Assembly (NCBI GenBank): GCA_028867735.1 | Contig: JAGWFW010000005.1 | Coordinates: 1-63,716 of the forward strand | DNA: 63,716 nucleotides | Origin: Nitrososphaerota archaeon | GTDB lineage: Archaea; Thermoproteota; Nitrososphaeria; Nitrososphaerales; Nitrosopumilaceae | Direction of reading: 5' to 3' | Part shown: in pieces, positions 24,594 to 39,188 of the stretch | How the letters are laid out: each line of letters begins with the position of its first letter | Position numbering within the stretch: the stretch's first letter is position 1 | Notes under the pieces: generated by a model | Seen by the model: only the letters and a program-made list of their open reading frames with translations | Told to the model about the DNA's origin: nothing | Database searches by the model: none | Made by a program: the position numbers and the translations under genes

Positions 24594-25151
24594 CTAGTCT
24601 TCCCAGATTATCTTCGCCGCTACCTTTTTGGCAATCAGGGCCCGTGCGTTCTCAAACGGCAAGGTTGCAACATCTTCAGCCTCAAACGGGCCATATGTCT
24701 GAAGATCTGTTCCTACAATCTGGTCTATTGGTTTGAGAAATCTCACGACTACAGTCCTAGATCTGTGATTTTCCGCTACGGTTTCTAGAAGCTTCAACCT
24801 GCCGTTCAATGTTGCGGAGAGAATGGTCTCTTTTCTCTGCCTTAGTTCATCCTCAGAATCAAGGATGAATCTTTCTTCATCAAGAAGATTCGAATAGTCA
24901 ATCTCTTCAGAATCAGCTGCCTTTTCAATTCTGATTTTCAAAAGAAGAGATGTCATGTCGGTTATCATTTTTACAAGCGAGTCTTTGATTTTGGATTCAA
25001 CTCCATCATAGTCCTGATTTTTTAAATTTCCAAGAAATTCTGCAATGTTGTTGTACAGCTTGGAATCTAGCTCCTGTACTGAATCATTTTCTACTTCCCG
25101 GAGAAGCAAGGAATACAATGAATTTGCATCAATTTTTTTTGTTTCTGACAT
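24594..25151 (-). CDS. GINS complex subunit (Gins51/Gins15 type)
   Basis: The 185-residue protein has a helical N-terminal A-domain and a small beta-rich C-terminal B-domain. The latter contains VVRFLKPIDQIVGTDLQTYGPFEAEDVATLPFENARALI (about residues 133-175), the archaeal Gins51 signature. GINS links the MCM helicase to primase and the Cdc45/RecJ-like factor at the replication fork. The gene lies about 11 kb from the candidate origin and faces away from glutamine synthetase across a 56-bp spacer. Confidence 0.88.
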   Translation of the reverse strand: MSETKKIDANSLYSLLLREVENDSVQELDSKLYNNIAEFLGNLKNQDYDGVESKIKDSLVKMITDMTSLLLKIRIEKAADSEEIDYSNLLDEERFILDSEDELRQRKETILSATLNGRLKLLETVAENHRSRTVVVRFLKPIDQIVGTDLQTYGPFEAEDVATLPFENARALIAKKVAAKIIWED

Positions 25152-28799: not shown

Positions 28800-30122
28800 A
28801 TGGCACGCTCCTCGCCACGTGTTGCTTACAAAGAAGTACTTTCCCTGCTCAAGACCCATAACCAATGGTTTGCCGACTCGATCCCATTAATTGCAAGCGA
28901 GAATATCCCCAGTCCGGCGGTCAGAGAGGCAACAATTTCCGATTTTGCAAATAGATATGCGGAAGGCTGGCCGGGGGAACGAGTCTATGCGGGATGCGTC
29001 TACATTGACAAGGTAGAATTCAAGTGCATGGAACTTGCACAAAAACTATTCAAGGCAGAGTTTGTTGATGTGAGGCCAATTTCAGGCGTTGTTGCTAATC
29101 TGGCAATTTATTCAGCGTTTACCAATCCAGGCGATGTAATGCTTGCGCCGTCTATTCCATCTGGCGGACATATCTCACACGGTAAAAAAGAACATGCCGG
29201 AACCGCAGGACTTGTGCACGGACTGGACATAGAGTTCTATCCATTTGATGCAGAAGAGATGACAATTGATGTTGACAAGACAAAGCAAAAAGTTCAGGAA
29301 CTTGAAAAGGCAGGCAGGACTCCAAAGCTTGCGATGTTTGGCGGTTCAGTCTTTTTGTTTCCCCACCCCGTAAAGGAACTTGCCGATTTTCTGAAAAGTT
29401 ATAAGATGTTCATAAACTATGACGGCGCCCATGTGGCAGGCCTTATTGCAGGAGGCCAGTTCCAAGACCCGCTCAGAGAGGGAGCAGACGCGATGACTAT
29501 GAGCACCCACAAGACCTTGTTTGGCCCCCAAGGAGGAATGATATGCTCATTTAACAAATACGGCGACGAGATCAAAAAGGCGACATTTCCCGGAATGACA
29601 AGCAACCATCATTTGCATCACATGGCAGGAAAGGCCATTGCATTTGCAGAAATGTTGGAGTTTGGCAAAAAATATGCAGCACAGGTGGTCAAGAATGCAA
29701 AGGCCCTGGCAGAAGATCTAAGCTCGGCTGGTTTTACAGTGCTTGGGGAAAAACGCGGATTTACAAAATCACATCAAATTGTAGTAAATGTTCTTTCATT
29801 TGGAGATGGAGGTGCCATAGAAGCTGATCTTGAAAAGGCAAACATCATTGTAAACAGGCAACTTATCCCAGGAGACATCAAGGCTGGACGCAACTATTTC
29901 CATCCGGGAGGCATGAGACTTGGGGTTGCAGAGTTGACAAGACTTGGCATGAAAGAGTCTGAAATGAAACAGGTTGCAGAGTTTATCAAAAATGTGGTTG
30001 CAGACAAGAAAGACAAGAAAAAGATTGCAGGAGAGGTCAAGCGATTTAGAAGGAAATTCCAGAAGGTGCGATATTGCTTTGAAAGCAAGATGGGTGGATA
30101 TGATTATGTCAAGCTTCGTTAG
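28800..30122 (+). CDS. glyA: Serine hydroxymethyltransferase
   Basis: This PLP enzyme interconverts serine and glycine with a pterin C1 carrier. The 440-residue protein has LIASENIPSPAVREA (about 30-44), the PLP-binding STHKTLFGPQGG (Lys about residue 237), and YDGAHVAGLIAGG. It begins with ATG. The stop interlocks with the stop of the PolD large-subunit gene (TTAG at 30119-30122). The C1 carrier in thaumarchaea is probably tetrahydrofolate or a tetrahydromethanopterin analogue, which the sequence does not decide. Confidence 0.96.
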   Translation: MARSSPRVAYKEVLSLLKTHNQWFADSIPLIASENIPSPAVREATISDFANRYAEGWPGERVYAGCVYIDKVEFKCMELAQKLFKAEFVDVRPISGVVANLAIYSAFTNPGDVMLAPSIPSGGHISHGKKEHAGTAGLVHGLDIEFYPFDAEEMTIDVDKTKQKVQELEKAGRTPKLAMFGGSVFLFPHPVKELADFLKSYKMFINYDGAHVAGLIAGGQFQDPLREGADAMTMSTHKTLFGPQGGMICSFNKYGDEIKKATFPGMTSNHHLHHMAGKAIAFAEMLEFGKKYAAQVVKNAKALAEDLSSAGFTVLGEKRGFTKSHQIVVNVLSFGDGGAIEADLEKANIIVNRQLIPGDIKAGRNYFHPGGMRLGVAELTRLGMKESEMKQVAEFIKNVVADKKDKKKIAGEVKRFRRKFQKVRYCFESKMGGYDYVKLR

Positions 30123-33100
30123 GCATAGTCTGTAAGCAGGGCTTGGCTTCCATCTTCTTTACCAAATACAAGTTCAAGTTCATCCAGTAAAGAGAGAACC
30201 CTGCCCTTCAGATATGGTTCGATCCTGTACTGGCCAAGCATTCTTCTTGCAAGCTTGAGATATTTTTGGACAGACGGTCTTGTCATTGTTTGAATTAGTT
30301 TATTTCCGCACTCCAAGCACTTTGCCGCCAGTGGAATTCTTCTATAGCTTGCGCCGCATGTAGTACATCTAAACGACTGTCCGGAATATGCCCTGAGATT
30401 TCCCATAATATCAGGCAGGAGGTGAGTGGTCATGACCATGGAGACTACCTCGCTTGGGTCCACCGCATTGATTATATCAGCAGTTCTGATTTGCATGTCA
30501 AGTTTTTCAAGTACCGAGCCCAGTGTGGAATATGCACTGCGTGATTTCGAGGTGGTAAGGGTGGCGGTCCCGTGCGTGAATCCATAGTCATAGAATTGTT
30601 TTTCAGTCTCTAGCCTTGATTTTAGAATTTCAACTCCCTTTATCTCACTTGCTTTTTCCTTCTGCAATGTTGCCTCAAAAAACGACAGCGGATAACTGGT
30701 TGCCAGCTCAAAGTTGTGTGCCTGTCTTTGTACCTCTTGTGGTATAACGATTGGTTGTACAAGCAGTGGTGCGTCCATCAATCCGCCAATTCTATCAGAC
30801 AGGAAGAGGCGCGAAAAGTTGAGCAGGCTGTCCAGCAATAGCATAATAGAGTCTGCATCCCCATCGGCGTCTCTTCTTTTTGCTGAGTGCCACACTGCCG
30901 TGCCGAGGCAGACTTGGGTATTTGTATATCCAATTATTCTTCCCACAATGCCAACAGAAGTGTGCGGTGCAAGCCCGATTATCAAGTGGCCGACCAGACC
31001 TTCAGTATTTTTTACGTTGTAGTAAGGAGGATGTGCAAATAGTTTTGCAAGTTCTTGGTCCAGATATTGGCAGACAAGAACTAGGCTGTCACCGCACACT
31101 TTTGGAATTATGACATCCTGGGTTTTTAGCTCGACCAGTTGGTCTTGGTTTTCAAGCGGCTTGCCGTTTATGTCATGCGTATATCCAAGATCGACAAGCT
31201 TTTCCGGGGCTGTGCCAATCCAAGAGGGTTTAAAATGAGAAAGCGGCGCGTTGGTTGCATCGAATCTGATGGTACCATCTTTGAAAACATTGAGGTTCAG
31301 GCTTTGTCGTATGAGTCCTTTTTCCATGGGCTCTGGAACCCTGTCTTGATTGATTAGCTCCTTTACCCCTTTGAATGGCTCTTGGGCGCGAATGCCTGTT
31401 CTTTCCTGTGCGGAATAGAGCAGATCTTTGAGAGGAAATGCGCGGTATGAGTGGGCCGATGCCCTAACCCTGCATCTGGGGCAGGGCGATTCCTCCAACT
31501 CACTGCGACATTTGGGGCAGACAAGCATTGTAACAGTCTTGGTTTTGCAGCGAGGACACACTATGCTAATTGAGGGCAGGTTGCAGTTTTTGCACATCCT
31601 GTTGTTGATGTTGCAGTAGAAATTGGGTTGTTTTGAGGCCTTGAGAAGATCGCGTGAGGCCCCTCCCTTGCTTCCTACGGGAAACAGCGTATGCACTGGA
31701 GGTTTCATTTTTCTAAGTGACGCCTTTTCAGGTCTTCCGACCCTGACACCTATGGCAGTGGAGAACTTGGGCGGTATCCTGATTCCGGATGATACAGAGA
31801 TTATTTCTGGAACTGATAGTGTTTTGTCTAGTTGAATTGGTTTTCTAAAAAGCAGATAAAAGAAAATTTTTGCTTCGGTGTCTTTTAGCACTATTGCATC
31901 ATCTGCCAATTCATGGGGAACACCGAGTTTTTCCAGAATTTCCTTTGTGTCTGTTTGGTAAACTGCAAGCTCGGGTTCCATCTTGGTCGGGACAAGAAGC
32001 TTTTCAAACTCTTGCACTGTTAGTTGGTCCCAGTAGTACAGGTAGTGGGGATGAAGACCTATTCCAAAATTAAGTGATATTCTAAAGGCCTCCTCAAGAT
32101 CTGGAGTCTTGTCCACATAGTCTAGCAGCTCAAGGTCACGCGGTTCGTATTTTGCGACCTTTTCCTTTAGCTCCTCGATCCAGAACTCTTCTACATACCC
32201 AGTGGGTACAAGCTCGGCGTTGTTTTCAAGAAAGTCTCCATAACTTATGAGTATGTCCCCCAGATGCAGAATTTTTTCTATGTGCGGTTTTAGATGAATT
32301 CCATGTGCGGTATCTCTTATCTTGACTACGTTTCCATTATCTAGCCTGACAACCGGCGTATCGATTGAATCAACAAACGCGATGGTTGCAGCCTTCCCCG
32401 GAATGTCAAGTTTAATCTGCGTGCCTACCGCGATTACATGATCTAAAATTTCCGCAACAACTGGATGGATTCCAACTGATGCAAATCCGGTGTTGCATGC
32501 ACGTCCATATCGAAGCCTGAATCCCCCGAGTTTCTTTGGCATTGAAAGAACGGATCTGCCAGTGATTACTTCTCTCATTCTATGGGCCGCCGCATCCTCA
32601 TCTCCTGTCTGGATGGCGCCTTTTAGGTCCTTGAGCCATTCCCAGCCGTCTAGTTTGAACAGGTCAATCAATTTTAGTAACTTTCTAGACCTGCCAATAA
32701 GCCCGTCATTGAGTACACGAAGCGCGCCTCCCCGGACCCTGTTTGTGCCTATTCTTGTCATATTTCTATGGCTTACAATCTCGACTGGATCGGTATCTAT
32801 GCCGTCAAGCTCTACGGCAAGATTAGAAATGACCGTGACCACATCCTCATCTGGAACATGGAATTGAAAGCTTCCTACTTCCCTCTCATAGAGGCGCAGT
32901 TCTTCTACAAACCTGCCCGTCTCATCATCGTATGAATTTGCCTTGTATTTGTCAAGGCCGGCAATCTTACGCACATGGTCTGCAATAAGCATTGTAGAGG
33001 CAGCTTCTGTACCCCCAGCTGATCGTATAGGTCCTGCAAACGAGACCGAGAGATACTCTGTACCGTCTGCATTCTTCTTTATCTTGACCTCGCTTATACC

Positions 33101-33493
33101 CTGAAGGGGCGCTATGGTCACGCCTTCAGTAACTATCGCCAGTCCTACACGTACGGCCAAGTCAAGCTTTTCCTCAAGACTTGTCTCAGACCCCAAATAC
33201 TTGCCTCGGGCTATCTCTTCTGCAAGTTTGAGAGCAGCCAGTTCCTTTGTTGTTGTCTGGATGAGGTTTCTGAGGTTTTCTGTGACATCTATGTCGTGCA
33301 TTTTTGATACGCGATCAGATAGGTCAAATGCTATCTTGGGCTCTACCATTCCGGAGGAATCGGCCAGGGTTGCTTTGGCAGAGGCGGCCTTTTCAAAGAT
33401 GGTAAAGACCTCGCTAGATATTCTGTTATAATAATCAAGATACGACGCTGGCATTGGGACTTCCTTGAGCCTCAATGCTACATTTTCGGACAT
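30119..33493 (-). CDS. polC: DNA polymerase D large subunit (DP2)
   Basis: This is the catalytic subunit of archaeal replicative polymerase D (1124 residues). The catalytic region holds the Asp-rich KRRDADGDADSIMLLLD (about residue 860), in the double-psi beta-barrel core shared with multisubunit RNA polymerases. A Cys cluster with CKNC, CPRC, CPKC and CPRC (about 620-670) and a second zinc site (CTTCGASY, CLECGNK) near the C-terminus are visible. No intein interrupts it. It is followed 1 nt upstream in transcription order by GGGP synthase, so both form an operon. Confidence 0.97.
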   Translation of the reverse strand: MSENVALRLKEVPMPASYLDYYNRISSEVFTIFEKAASAKATLADSSGMVEPKIAFDLSDRVSKMHDIDVTENLRNLIQTTTKELAALKLAEEIARGKYLGSETSLEEKLDLAVRVGLAIVTEGVTIAPLQGISEVKIKKNADGTEYLSVSFAGPIRSAGGTEAASTMLIADHVRKIAGLDKYKANSYDDETGRFVEELRLYEREVGSFQFHVPDEDVVTVISNLAVELDGIDTDPVEIVSHRNMTRIGTNRVRGGALRVLNDGLIGRSRKLLKLIDLFKLDGWEWLKDLKGAIQTGDEDAAAHRMREVITGRSVLSMPKKLGGFRLRYGRACNTGFASVGIHPVVAEILDHVIAVGTQIKLDIPGKAATIAFVDSIDTPVVRLDNGNVVKIRDTAHGIHLKPHIEKILHLGDILISYGDFLENNAELVPTGYVEEFWIEELKEKVAKYEPRDLELLDYVDKTPDLEEAFRISLNFGIGLHPHYLYYWDQLTVQEFEKLLVPTKMEPELAVYQTDTKEILEKLGVPHELADDAIVLKDTEAKIFFYLLFRKPIQLDKTLSVPEIISVSSGIRIPPKFSTAIGVRVGRPEKASLRKMKPPVHTLFPVGSKGGASRDLLKASKQPNFYCNINNRMCKNCNLPSISIVCPRCKTKTVTMLVCPKCRSELEESPCPRCRVRASAHSYRAFPLKDLLYSAQERTGIRAQEPFKGVKELINQDRVPEPMEKGLIRQSLNLNVFKDGTIRFDATNAPLSHFKPSWIGTAPEKLVDLGYTHDINGKPLENQDQLVELKTQDVIIPKVCGDSLVLVCQYLDQELAKLFAHPPYYNVKNTEGLVGHLIIGLAPHTSVGIVGRIIGYTNTQVCLGTAVWHSAKRRDADGDADSIMLLLDSLLNFSRLFLSDRIGGLMDAPLLVQPIVIPQEVQRQAHNFELATSYPLSFFEATLQKEKASEIKGVEILKSRLETEKQFYDYGFTHGTATLTTSKSRSAYSTLGSVLEKLDMQIRTADIINAVDPSEVVSMVMTTHLLPDIMGNLRAYSGQSFRCTTCGASYRRIPLAAKCLECGNKLIQTMTRPSVQKYLKLARRMLGQYRIEPYLKGRVLSLLDELELVFGKEDGSQALLTDYA

Positions 33494-36074: not shown

Positions 36075-36230
36075 GTGATCGATCCGGTTAACACCTTAAC
36101 ACTTGAACAGATCAAAGAAGAATTGTTAACAAGGGGGTTTGTTAACATTCACTGCCTAGTCCATTCGTAGACATTTATCCAATCTTAACAGGATGCCTAG
36201 CTTTCATATCACAGAATAGGCTGAAACTAT

Positions 36231-36258
36231 GCCTAGAGTGGAAATAAAGGGGTCTATT
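36231..36258 (+). repeat. ORB-like origin repeat 1
   Basis: This 28-nt unit begins GCCTAGAGTGG and ends in AAAGGGGTCTATT. It is identical to the unit at 36293-36320 and has the same orientation. The GTGGAAA core and the G-run match the layout of archaeal origin recognition boxes and mini-ORBs. It is the presumed Orc1/Cdc6 binding site. Confidence 0.75.
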
Positions 36259-36292
36259 CAGACATGTTAACAGTGTTAAGAGCCATCTTCAC

Positions 36293-36320
36293 GCCTAGAG
36301 TGGAAATAAAGGGGTCTATT
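36293..36320 (+). repeat. ORB-like origin repeat 2
   Basis: This is an exact copy of the 28-nt unit at 36231-36258, offset by 62 bp, close to six DNA helical turns, so both would present the same face. Identity stops abruptly at both ends, which suggests selection on a protein site rather than a recent large duplication. Confidence 0.75.
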
Positions 36321-36391
36321 TTGGCCTCTTTTTTGTTCATCTTAACAATAACTTAACAATCAGTGAACTTGATTCTAGGAATGCCCACACA

Positions 36392-36410
36392 CCATTCCTT
36401 CCACTCTAGC
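36392..36410 (-). repeat. Inverted partial ORB-like element
   Basis: Read on the minus strand, GCTAGAGTGGAAGGAATGG shares the CTAGAGTGGAA core of the two direct repeats. It has a different right half. It faces them across about 70 bp and borders the A/T-only stretch, an arrangement like inverted ORBs flanking the unwinding region in other archaeal origins. Confidence 0.6.
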
Positions 36411-36514
36411 TTTATTAAAAAAAATTTTTTAAGAAAAAATAAAAATAATTAATGATATACTAAATTTGAATTAGTTATTCTATTCTAATCTAGTTACTAT
36501 GGTAGAGTCCATAT

Positions 36515-37756
36515 GTGGACAGAGAAGAAACGACGGTGTGTGGGTTGATGACAAAAGATCCCATCGATAAATTACTCGATGATGCAGCAAGTGGTAAGTC
36601 ATTATTCAAAAACCGAGAGGTATTGCATTTTACTTTCATGCCAGATATTGTATTACACAGGGACGACGAGCAAAAGAAGGTCACACAATCACTAATTCCA
36701 TTATTAAAAAAATCGAGACCCTCAAATCTACTGATATATGGTAAACCAGGTACGGGCAAGACTCTGGTTGTTAAGAAGGTCTTAAACAAGATTCAAGAGC
36801 GGGTCAAGGACGGCTCATTTCCAATTCAACTGCTTTACGCAAATGCAAAAGAGGAAACTACACTGTATGGTTTATTGGTAAAGTTTGGCCGCCAGTTGGG
36901 ACTTGTATCCCAAAAAGAGCTACCAACAACCGGATTGTCAATAAGTGAGGTCTTTAATAGATTAATGACAGTAATTGAGAAAAACACACTCAATACGGTC
37001 TTTGTGGTTGATGAGATTGATTATCTTGCGGAATTGGTATCAAAGACAGGAAAGGATGTTTTTTACTCATTAACACGAGCAAATGAAAGGCTGAAGAAAG
37101 GCTCGCTTACCCTTATTGGGATATCAAACGACCTGACATTCAAAGAAAGACTGGACCCAAGGGTTCTAAGCAGTCTAAGCGAGGAAGAGATTGTCTTTAC
37201 CAATTATACAGTAAACCAGATCAAAGAAATCCTAACAGAGAGAATCAAGCAGGCCTTCATTCCAAATGTTCTTGATCCGGCCGCATTGAATCTGTGTGCT
37301 GCCATGTCAGGCCAAGAACATGGCGATGCCAGAAGAGCGATTGACCTGCTTCGTGTGGCAGGCGAGATAGCGGAACGCGAACAGGCCGATATGGTGAGGG
37401 AAGACCACATACGCGGGGCCTCACTGAAGATGGAAGAGGACAAGGAGACCACCGCACTCAACTCTTATCCTCTGCATGAAAAACTACTCATACTTGCCGT
37501 AATGAAGGCAAATGGCAGCACCACAGGCGAGATATATCAATCCTACAAAAATCTCTGCAAGACCACAAGGCAGAAGGAACTCACACAGCGGCGGGTCACG
37601 CAAATGCTAAGCGAGATTGAGATGACAGGACTGATCTCAGGCAAGATAATTCATCAAGGCATGCATGGCCGAACAAAGAAATTTGCTTTGACACTAAATC
37701 CTGAGACCGTAAAAAAGGCATTCAAGGAAGACCTAGTTCTGGAAGACCTGCTATAG
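36515..37756 (+). CDS. Orc1/Cdc6 replication initiator
   Basis: This origin-binding AAA+ ATPase has 413 residues. The N-terminal arm is followed by Walker A YGKPGTGKT (about 75-83), Walker B VFVVDEIDYL (about 167-176), a sensor 1 region ISND (about 210) and the GDARRAIDLLR sensor 2 motif (about 276). A C-terminal winged helix (about 325-400) closes the protein. GTG 36515 is used; ATG 36548 is an alternative. The candidate origin lies directly upstream, and the PolD small-subunit gene is convergent, with 1 nt between stops. Confidence 0.96.
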   Translation: MDREETTVCGLMTKDPIDKLLDDAASGKSLFKNREVLHFTFMPDIVLHRDDEQKKVTQSLIPLLKKSRPSNLLIYGKPGTGKTLVVKKVLNKIQERVKDGSFPIQLLYANAKEETTLYGLLVKFGRQLGLVSQKELPTTGLSISEVFNRLMTVIEKNTLNTVFVVDEIDYLAELVSKTGKDVFYSLTRANERLKKGSLTLIGISNDLTFKERLDPRVLSSLSEEEIVFTNYTVNQIKEILTERIKQAFIPNVLDPAALNLCAAMSGQEHGDARRAIDLLRVAGEIAEREQADMVREDHIRGASLKMEEDKETTALNSYPLHEKLLILAVMKANGSTTGEIYQSYKNLCKTTRQKELTQRRVTQMLSEIEMTGLISGKIIHQGMHGRTKKFALTLNPETVKKAFKEDLVLEDLL

Positions 37757-37757
37757 C

Positions 37758-39188
37758 TTAACCAGACGTTTCAGTAAAATCCTTGGTAAATACCTTCATT
37801 GTAGCCAAATTAACAATTATGGCAATGCCTGGAGTTGGGGTTATGCCAACACTTGCCTGATAACCTGTCTGGCTCTGCCAAGCTCCGGAATTAACAATCA
37901 ACGTTCCCTTGTACATGTCAAGGTCAACTACATGAACATGACCCGAATGAAAAATATCAGGAACCTCGTTTATCACCATGAAATCTTCAAGCTCTGGTGC
38001 AATTGGAGTCCGCTTTCCATATATTGGACTGAGATGCCTTGTCCTCAACAATGCACGCATTGCCTTTGCTGGCTGTGCATAGCTTAGACCAGGGGTGGTT
38101 CCTACCACATCATCAAGACTCTGGCCATGAAACATCAGCACCTTCACTCCATTAAGATCCAAAAATGCAGGATTGCCCATCATGAAAAAATTCTCCCGAT
38201 TCCACAAACTCATGTTGTGTTTTTCTGGTATGGCAGGCTGCGGCAGTGCTCTTCTACCAGGATCATGGTTGCCAGGAATAATGAAGGTCTTGATGTGTTT
38301 TGGGACTTTGTCAAGCATCTGTGCAGCCTTTGCCATCTGCTCGTCCATGTCAGTCAGAAGCAGCTCCTTGTCCTGATTTGGGAAGATGCCAACACCATCT
38401 ATTATATCCCCACATATCAAGAGAAACCGCACTTTTCTTGCCACTGGATCGGGGCTTGAAAGCCAAGCGATAAACTCTGCAAACTCCTTTTCCATAAAAT
38501 ACTTACTGCCAATGTGAATGTCAGATATCAAAACTGCATATGTCTCACTCTTCGAGCGATTTGCTATGTGATCTGGAATGTCTGGCACCAAAAGCTCCTT
38601 TACTATGAATCCCCCATTCTTACCATTTGTAATGCCTGCCATCACGAACTGGTCCATTAAAAGCGAGTTTGCAGTCTCCTGAAGCTCCTGGTTGAATACC
38701 AGGACTTCAAGGGAGCCAGTAGGATCGTCTATGACAAGCTTGGTGACATCCCGTTCACTCTTCCTATCCATCAAAAGACCTGCAACAAATATTTCCTCGC
38801 CCAGCTTGCCGCCAGTCACATTTCCTATTGGTATCATCTTTTTTGCCTGAGATCTTTGCATCATTATTCTAAGTAATTTTGAATACCTATCAGAAAACAA
38901 GGCCGTAAAACCATCTATTCCCTCTGCAGAAGTAACCTTTTTTGTAGGATCGAATAATATGGCGTGTTGGTCCCCAACACTCTCATCAATTCCCGACTCT
39001 ACGAACATTTTGAGGTCACTCCGATTTATCAAAAACAGGTTCTGCTTTGCCTTTTCACGAACAACCTGTTTAATTATATTTTGGAGTTCCTTCACATCTA
39101 TCTTCTCTAATATCTTAAACGCATCAGGATGAATCTGAAATCCCTTACTCAACGCATATGTTATTGCAGACGATACCTCTTCTTTCAC
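37758..39188 (-). CDS. polB: DNA polymerase D small subunit (DP1)
   Basis: The 476-residue protein has an N-terminal helical part (about 1-80), an OB fold (about 115-210) and a calcineurin-like phosphoesterase domain. This domain has SDIHIGS, LLICGDIIDG, IPGNHDPG and HSGHVHV. All metal-ligand motifs appear intact, which is consistent with an active 3'-5' proofreading exonuclease. It pairs with the large subunit at 30119-33493, 4 kb away across the origin, rather than being adjacent. Confidence 0.96.
   Translation of the reverse strand: MKEEVSSAITYALSKGFQIHPDAFKILEKIDVKELQNIIKQVVREKAKQNLFLINRSDLKMFVESGIDESVGDQHAILFDPTKKVTSAEGIDGFTALFSDRYSKLLRIMMQRSQAKKMIPIGNVTGGKLGEEIFVAGLLMDRKSERDVTKLVIDDPTGSLEVLVFNQELQETANSLLMDQFVMAGITNGKNGGFIVKELLVPDIPDHIANRSKSETYAVLISDIHIGSKYFMEKEFAEFIAWLSSPDPVARKVRFLLICGDIIDGVGIFPNQDKELLLTDMDEQMAKAAQMLDKVPKHIKTFIIPGNHDPGRRALPQPAIPEKHNMSLWNRENFFMMGNPAFLDLNGVKVLMFHGQSLDDVVGTTPGLSYAQPAKAMRALLRTRHLSPIYGKRTPIAPELEDFMVINEVPDIFHSGHVHVVDLDMYKGTLIVNSGAWQSQTGYQASVGITPTPGIAIIVNLATMKVFTKDFTETSG

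Follow-up and report, generated by a model that had tools for sequence, protein, structure and literature searches.

A conserved TTAACA half-site array and a candidate winged-helix partner at a predicted Orc1/ORB replication origin of Nitrosopumilaceae

The predicted replication origin of an ammonia-oxidizing archaeon of the Nitrosopumilaceae contains, in addition to origin recognition boxes (ORBs) and the adjoining orc1 gene, a conserved array of TTAACA half-sites interleaved with the ORBs, and a gene for a small winged-helix protein lies divergently beside it. The region is part of a 63,716-nt stretch of DNA (the window; contig JAGWFW010000005.1 of assembly GCA_028867735.1). Taken together, the features in Table 1 make it rather probable that this is an Orc1/ORB origin with an interleaved second array, bound by the winged-helix protein as an architectural or regulatory factor. 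The sequence-only reading had proposed a replication origin and was right about the origin itself; the TTAACA array and the winged-helix neighbor had been missed.

The window assembly (1.65 Mb, 266 contigs) is 84.7% complete, and its nearest relatives are Nitrosotalea-like Nitrosopumilaceae. The gene taken for Orc1/Cdc6 was identified as such by its Pfam matches, and the PolD and GINS genes said to be close by were all located (Table 1). For orc1, ATG 36548 is the more likely start than GTG 36515 of the listed open reading frame because ORB4, at 36523-36539, sits between the two codons and many relatives keep ORB4 just upstream of orc1. If begun at GTG 36515, the listed frame would span ORB4.

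Table 1. Features in and around the predicted origin (positions in the window; n/72, origins in which a site is conserved)
Feature	Position	Strand	Remarks
GINS51 gene	24594-25151		
PolD DP2 gene	30119-33493		Near origin region
Winged-helix protein gene, 131 aa	35679..36074	-	Divergent from orc1; proposed array-binding factor
TTAACA site 1, two copies	36088..36101	+	Second copy aligned in 58/72
TTAACA site 2 (TGTTAACA)	36124..36131	.	70/72
TTAACA site 3 (TGTTAACA)	36140..36147	.	72/72
TTAACA site 4	36185..36190	+	68/72
ORB1, predicted Orc1 binding box	36231..36258 (core 36237-36253)	+	Kept in ~78 relatives
TTAACA site 5, inverted pair TTAACA-N-TGTTAA	36265..36279	.	Between ORB1 and ORB2; 70/72 and 71/72
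ORB2, same sequence as ORB1	36293..36320	+	62 bp downstream of ORB1; 61-62 bp spacing conserved
TTAACA sites 6 and 7, 11 bp apart	36342..36358	+	Between ORB2 and ORB3; 70/72 and 46/72
TTAACA site 8	36362..36367	-	Degenerate in window genome, conserved in relatives; 66/72
ORB3, inverted	36389..36409	-	Left DUE border; in most relatives
A/T-rich region, putative duplex unwinding element (DUE)	36411..36520	.	Conserved blocks ~36440-36463, 36478-36488
ORB4, degenerate (4 mismatches)	36521..36544	+	Right DUE border, directly before orc1; inverted pair with ORB3
orc1/cdc6 initiator gene	36548..37756	+	Sole copy found in assembly; Pfam Cdc6_lid, Cdc6_C
PolD small-subunit-like protein gene	37758-39188		

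The two identical 28-nt repeats (ORB1 and ORB2, start-to-start 62 bp), the inverted partial copy (ORB3, 81% complementary), and the A/T-only stretch just past it were all present as first described from the letters. At up to 3 mismatches, the two 28-nt copies were the sole matches to the 21-nt core CTAGAGTGGAAATAAAGGGGT in the whole 1.65-Mb assembly. The core had been called archaeal ORB-like, and it is a close match to the regular expression that Ori-Finder 2 gives for the "Common" ORB, TCCA[CG]T[TG]GAAA[TC][GA]AAGGGGT (PMC4164010). The suggested check of repeat conservation was informative: ~78 related loci keep the whole layout, with a pair of direct ORBs spaced 61-62 bp, another in inverted orientation ~160 bp before orc1, and an A/T-rich region. 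Many of these also have a fourth, degenerate ORB ~25 bp before orc1; in a few, sequence is inserted or one element is missing. A similar ORB layout was found in two further families of the same order, presumably Nitrososphaeraceae and Nitrosocaldaceae. Multiple consensus ORBs, an A/T-rich putative DUE between the outward-facing ORB3 (-) and ORB4 (+), and an adjoining orc1 gene are characters of this locus. Because ~78 relatives keep the ORB/DUE/orc1 layout, the origin reading is well supported, and the region, judged from its sequence, is almost certainly the chromosomal replication origin of this ammonia-oxidizing archaeon.

TTAACA occurs 44 times in the window, and 12 of these copies fall within 36088-36358. 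In 78 origins, GTTAACA was the most enriched 7-mer, with 540 copies observed versus 2.4 expected from flanking DNA (225-fold), and it was found in 78/78. The main TTAACA sites occupy fixed alignment columns (46-72 of 72 origins) to the left of ORB1 and in the ORB1-ORB2 and ORB2-ORB3 intervals, the first of which holds an inverted pair. When 780 kb of a complete relative was scanned, the densest TTAACA window was the origin, with 12 sites per 450 bp versus 4 in the next best. We consider it very probable that the array is a genuine conserved element of the origin region. Outside the origins of Nitrosopumilaceae loci L003-L082, GTTAAC showed stronger depletion than any other of the 64 palindromic hexamers (56 copies against an expected 118), as if the sites were avoided elsewhere.

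The divergent winged-helix gene adjoins orc1 in all Nitrosopumilaceae loci holding the region. In a winged-helix profile search of 300 genomes of the phylum, 177 had one match each; outside the window's family, 41 of the 69 scored genomes carried the gene within ~3 kb of orc1, adjacent and in divergent orientation. The window protein was below all Pfam cut-offs; it scored 17.1 bits against Penicillinase_R (PF03965), under the gathering cut-off of 22.6, and weak Penicillinase_R matches were obtained for 28/32 homologues. The AlphaFold2 model has an N-terminal beta-hairpin and helix followed by a confident winged helix (block-mean pLDDT ~90-95 over residues 61-120), and the domain arrangement is uncertain because the pTM was 0.55. 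A PDB profile search and a fold search returned generic, insignificant matches only; the fold matches, none with E below 0.001, were mostly to generic winged-helix repressors.

Across the phylum, TTCACA was the enriched motif in 20 regions from other families (100 copies versus 11 expected), where it is arranged around and between ORBs. No clear array was observed in sampled families without the winged-helix gene, including those having ORB-like sites. Also, no clear array was seen at the examined orc1 copy in winged-helix genomes of families f6, f35, f45, and f27; these copies may not be origins because ORB-like sites were not seen there either. The co-occurrence of gene and array is not independent evidence since gene presence follows phylogeny.

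The array might instead be a transcriptional operator of orc1 and/or the winged-helix gene at an ordinary Orc1/ORB origin, with no direct role in replication, as would be allowed by the short distance (~14 nt) from site 1 to the start codon of the winged-helix gene downstream of it and by the resemblance of the protein to bacterial BlaI/CopY repressors. However, in family f11, where the two genes are separated by 15-20 kb or lie on different contigs, the array is kept at orc1 with 5-12 sites, whereas the region upstream of the winged-helix gene has 0-2. The array is therefore not simply the operator of that gene. In addition, the sites occupy fixed positions among the ORBs at a distance of ~180-460 bp from orc1, and we regard an operator function as unlikely. 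Autoregulation of the winged-helix gene as such was considered and disfavored on the same split loci.

Residue 93 of the winged-helix protein is the third residue of the predicted recognition helix, in the confidently modeled third helix of the winged-helix domain. It was V, I, L, or M with TTAACA in f1-f3, the three TTAACA families of the order, and A in family f13, in which TTAACA is likewise the predominant motif. Genomes with TTCACA nearly all have T at this position. The exceptions were genome L156, which has A93 but TTCACA, and some T93 members of f10, f20, and f26, which showed near ties or a slight TTAACA majority. Since columns 33 and 111 of the winged-helix alignment distinguish the two types of motif with about the same success as column 93, the tracking by residue 93 is a lead and not proof. 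In our view, these sequence comparisons make it reasonably probable that the winged-helix protein binds the array.

An origin element bound by some other clade-specific factor, with the winged-helix gene merely syntenic, would be compatible with several alignment columns tracking the motif type. The missing winged-helix gene in other f13 genera is uninformative as a negative control because a close Orc1 is mostly absent from them too. By contrast, both apparent motif switches, in the Nitrososphaerales families and in f13, coincide with the disappearance of Thr93 from the predicted recognition helix, and a different binding factor accordingly seems improbable to us. In f13 genomes G011, G326, G327, G336, and G337, the winged-helix gene and a close Orc1 were both missing, and only a divergent relative of Orc1 was found.

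Bacterial and plasmid partition sites often lie near origins, and the weak generic fold matches of the winged-helix protein included the centromere-binding proteins AspA and TubR. The array could thus be imagined to serve segregation, as a parS-type, centromere-like site adjoining the origin to which a centromere protein of the winged-helix type binds. However, these matches were among the insignificant ones described above, which were mainly to generic repressors, and the sites are interleaved with the ORBs and form no separate block. We consider this function quite improbable.

GC skew, proposed at the outset as a check of the origin, was calculated for 39 stretches of 20 kb (780 kb) of the complete relative G268 in place of the fragmented window assembly. 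The skew was flat, with no extremum at orc1, and a cumulative gene-orientation minimum near orc1 was suggestive only. The view that thaumarchaeal origins are poorly described experimentally is partly out of date: PMC4010727 cites Pelve et al. 2013 as having mapped a single origin in Nitrosopumilus maritimus. By analogy with that species, the N. cavascurensis origin has been assigned to the position before the ORB repeats and cdc gene (PMC5797428). As the single Nitrosopumilus origin has already been mapped, finding an origin here is in itself ordinary. That the repeats serve only the autoregulation of orc1 while replication begins elsewhere would suit the flat GC skew of the sampled relative, but it is very hard to reconcile with the four-ORB/DUE layout of ~78 relatives, the lack of further ORB copies in the assembly, the single origin mapped in N. 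maritimus, the placement of the N. cavascurensis origin by analogy with it, and the gene-orientation minimum.

For an Orc1/ORB origin with a second, protein-bound array, we propose the following course of events. Orc1, the product of the adjoining gene, would bind ORB1-ORB4 and guide the loading of MCM at the A/T-rich DUE that ORB3 and ORB4 enclose. The small winged-helix protein would bind the half-sites (TTAACA, or TTCACA in other lineages) interleaved with ORB1-ORB3 and, by occupying ~10 of them, could cause the left half of the origin to fold or become stiffer. It may cooperate with Orc1 to activate or time initiation, and by analogy with ucm/UBP of Sulfolobus, it would be an origin-dedicated architectural or regulatory factor. 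We lean slightly toward the broader view that an ancient second origin system is common to Nitrososphaerales and several further lineages of Thermoproteota. It would combine a TT(A/C)ACA half-site array at the orc1 origin with a winged-helix protein dedicated to it, the recognition helix of which would have co-evolved with the motif.

The region shares ORBs with a G-string, adjacency to orc1, and an A/T-rich DUE flanked by oppositely oriented ORBs with known archaeal Orc1/Cdc6-ORB origins (Sulfolobus oriC1, haloarchaea, and N. maritimus), and differs from these, as described in the searched literature, by the interleaved TTAACA/TTCACA array and the divergent winged-helix gene. The ucm/UBP system of the Sulfolobales likewise adds to an Orc1 origin a further conserved cis element and a small DNA-binding protein that acts on it, a role for which the winged-helix protein is a candidate here. 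According to Dhanaraju et al. 2025 (PMC12141716), ucm is located within the DUE, and UBP, with more than 300 sites across the genome, is reported only from Desulfurococcales and Sulfolobales, where ubp is described as an acquisition. By contrast, the ~10 half-sites described here are outside the DUE and strongly concentrated at the origin, and the candidate protein is a winged-helix protein. The conserved block in the DUE of the window is a separate feature and a positional analogue of ucm: in 72 origins, both blocks given in Table 1 were nearly invariant and A/T-rich, and they take the position of ucm in Sulfolobus origins, with weak sequence resemblance to it. The BlaI/MecI/CopY (Penicillinase_R) repressors have a similar winged-helix and recognition-helix sequence. 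CopY repressors, and reportedly also BlaI and MecI, bind TACANNTGTA (PMC7253601), and this operator has an ACA core in common with the TTAACA/TTCACA array. Unlike these repressors, the window protein is under the Pfam cut-off, has the extra N-terminal beta-hairpin/helix domain, and is linked to orc1.

No description of the array was found in the searched literature, in which the N. maritimus origin mapping is covered as cited in PMC4010727. The array and its candidate protein thus appear to form an origin variant without a published description in that literature, at an origin that is itself of known type. They point to an unrecognized part of replication initiation in these archaea and bear on the question of which factors besides Orc1 act at archaeal origins; the authors of the 2025 study of ucm/UBP considered it of interest whether other lineages have analogous proteins (PMC12141716). 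The outcome would be a defined cis element, protein, and residue/base pairing in abundant ammonia-oxidizing archaea and in other lineages of the phylum.
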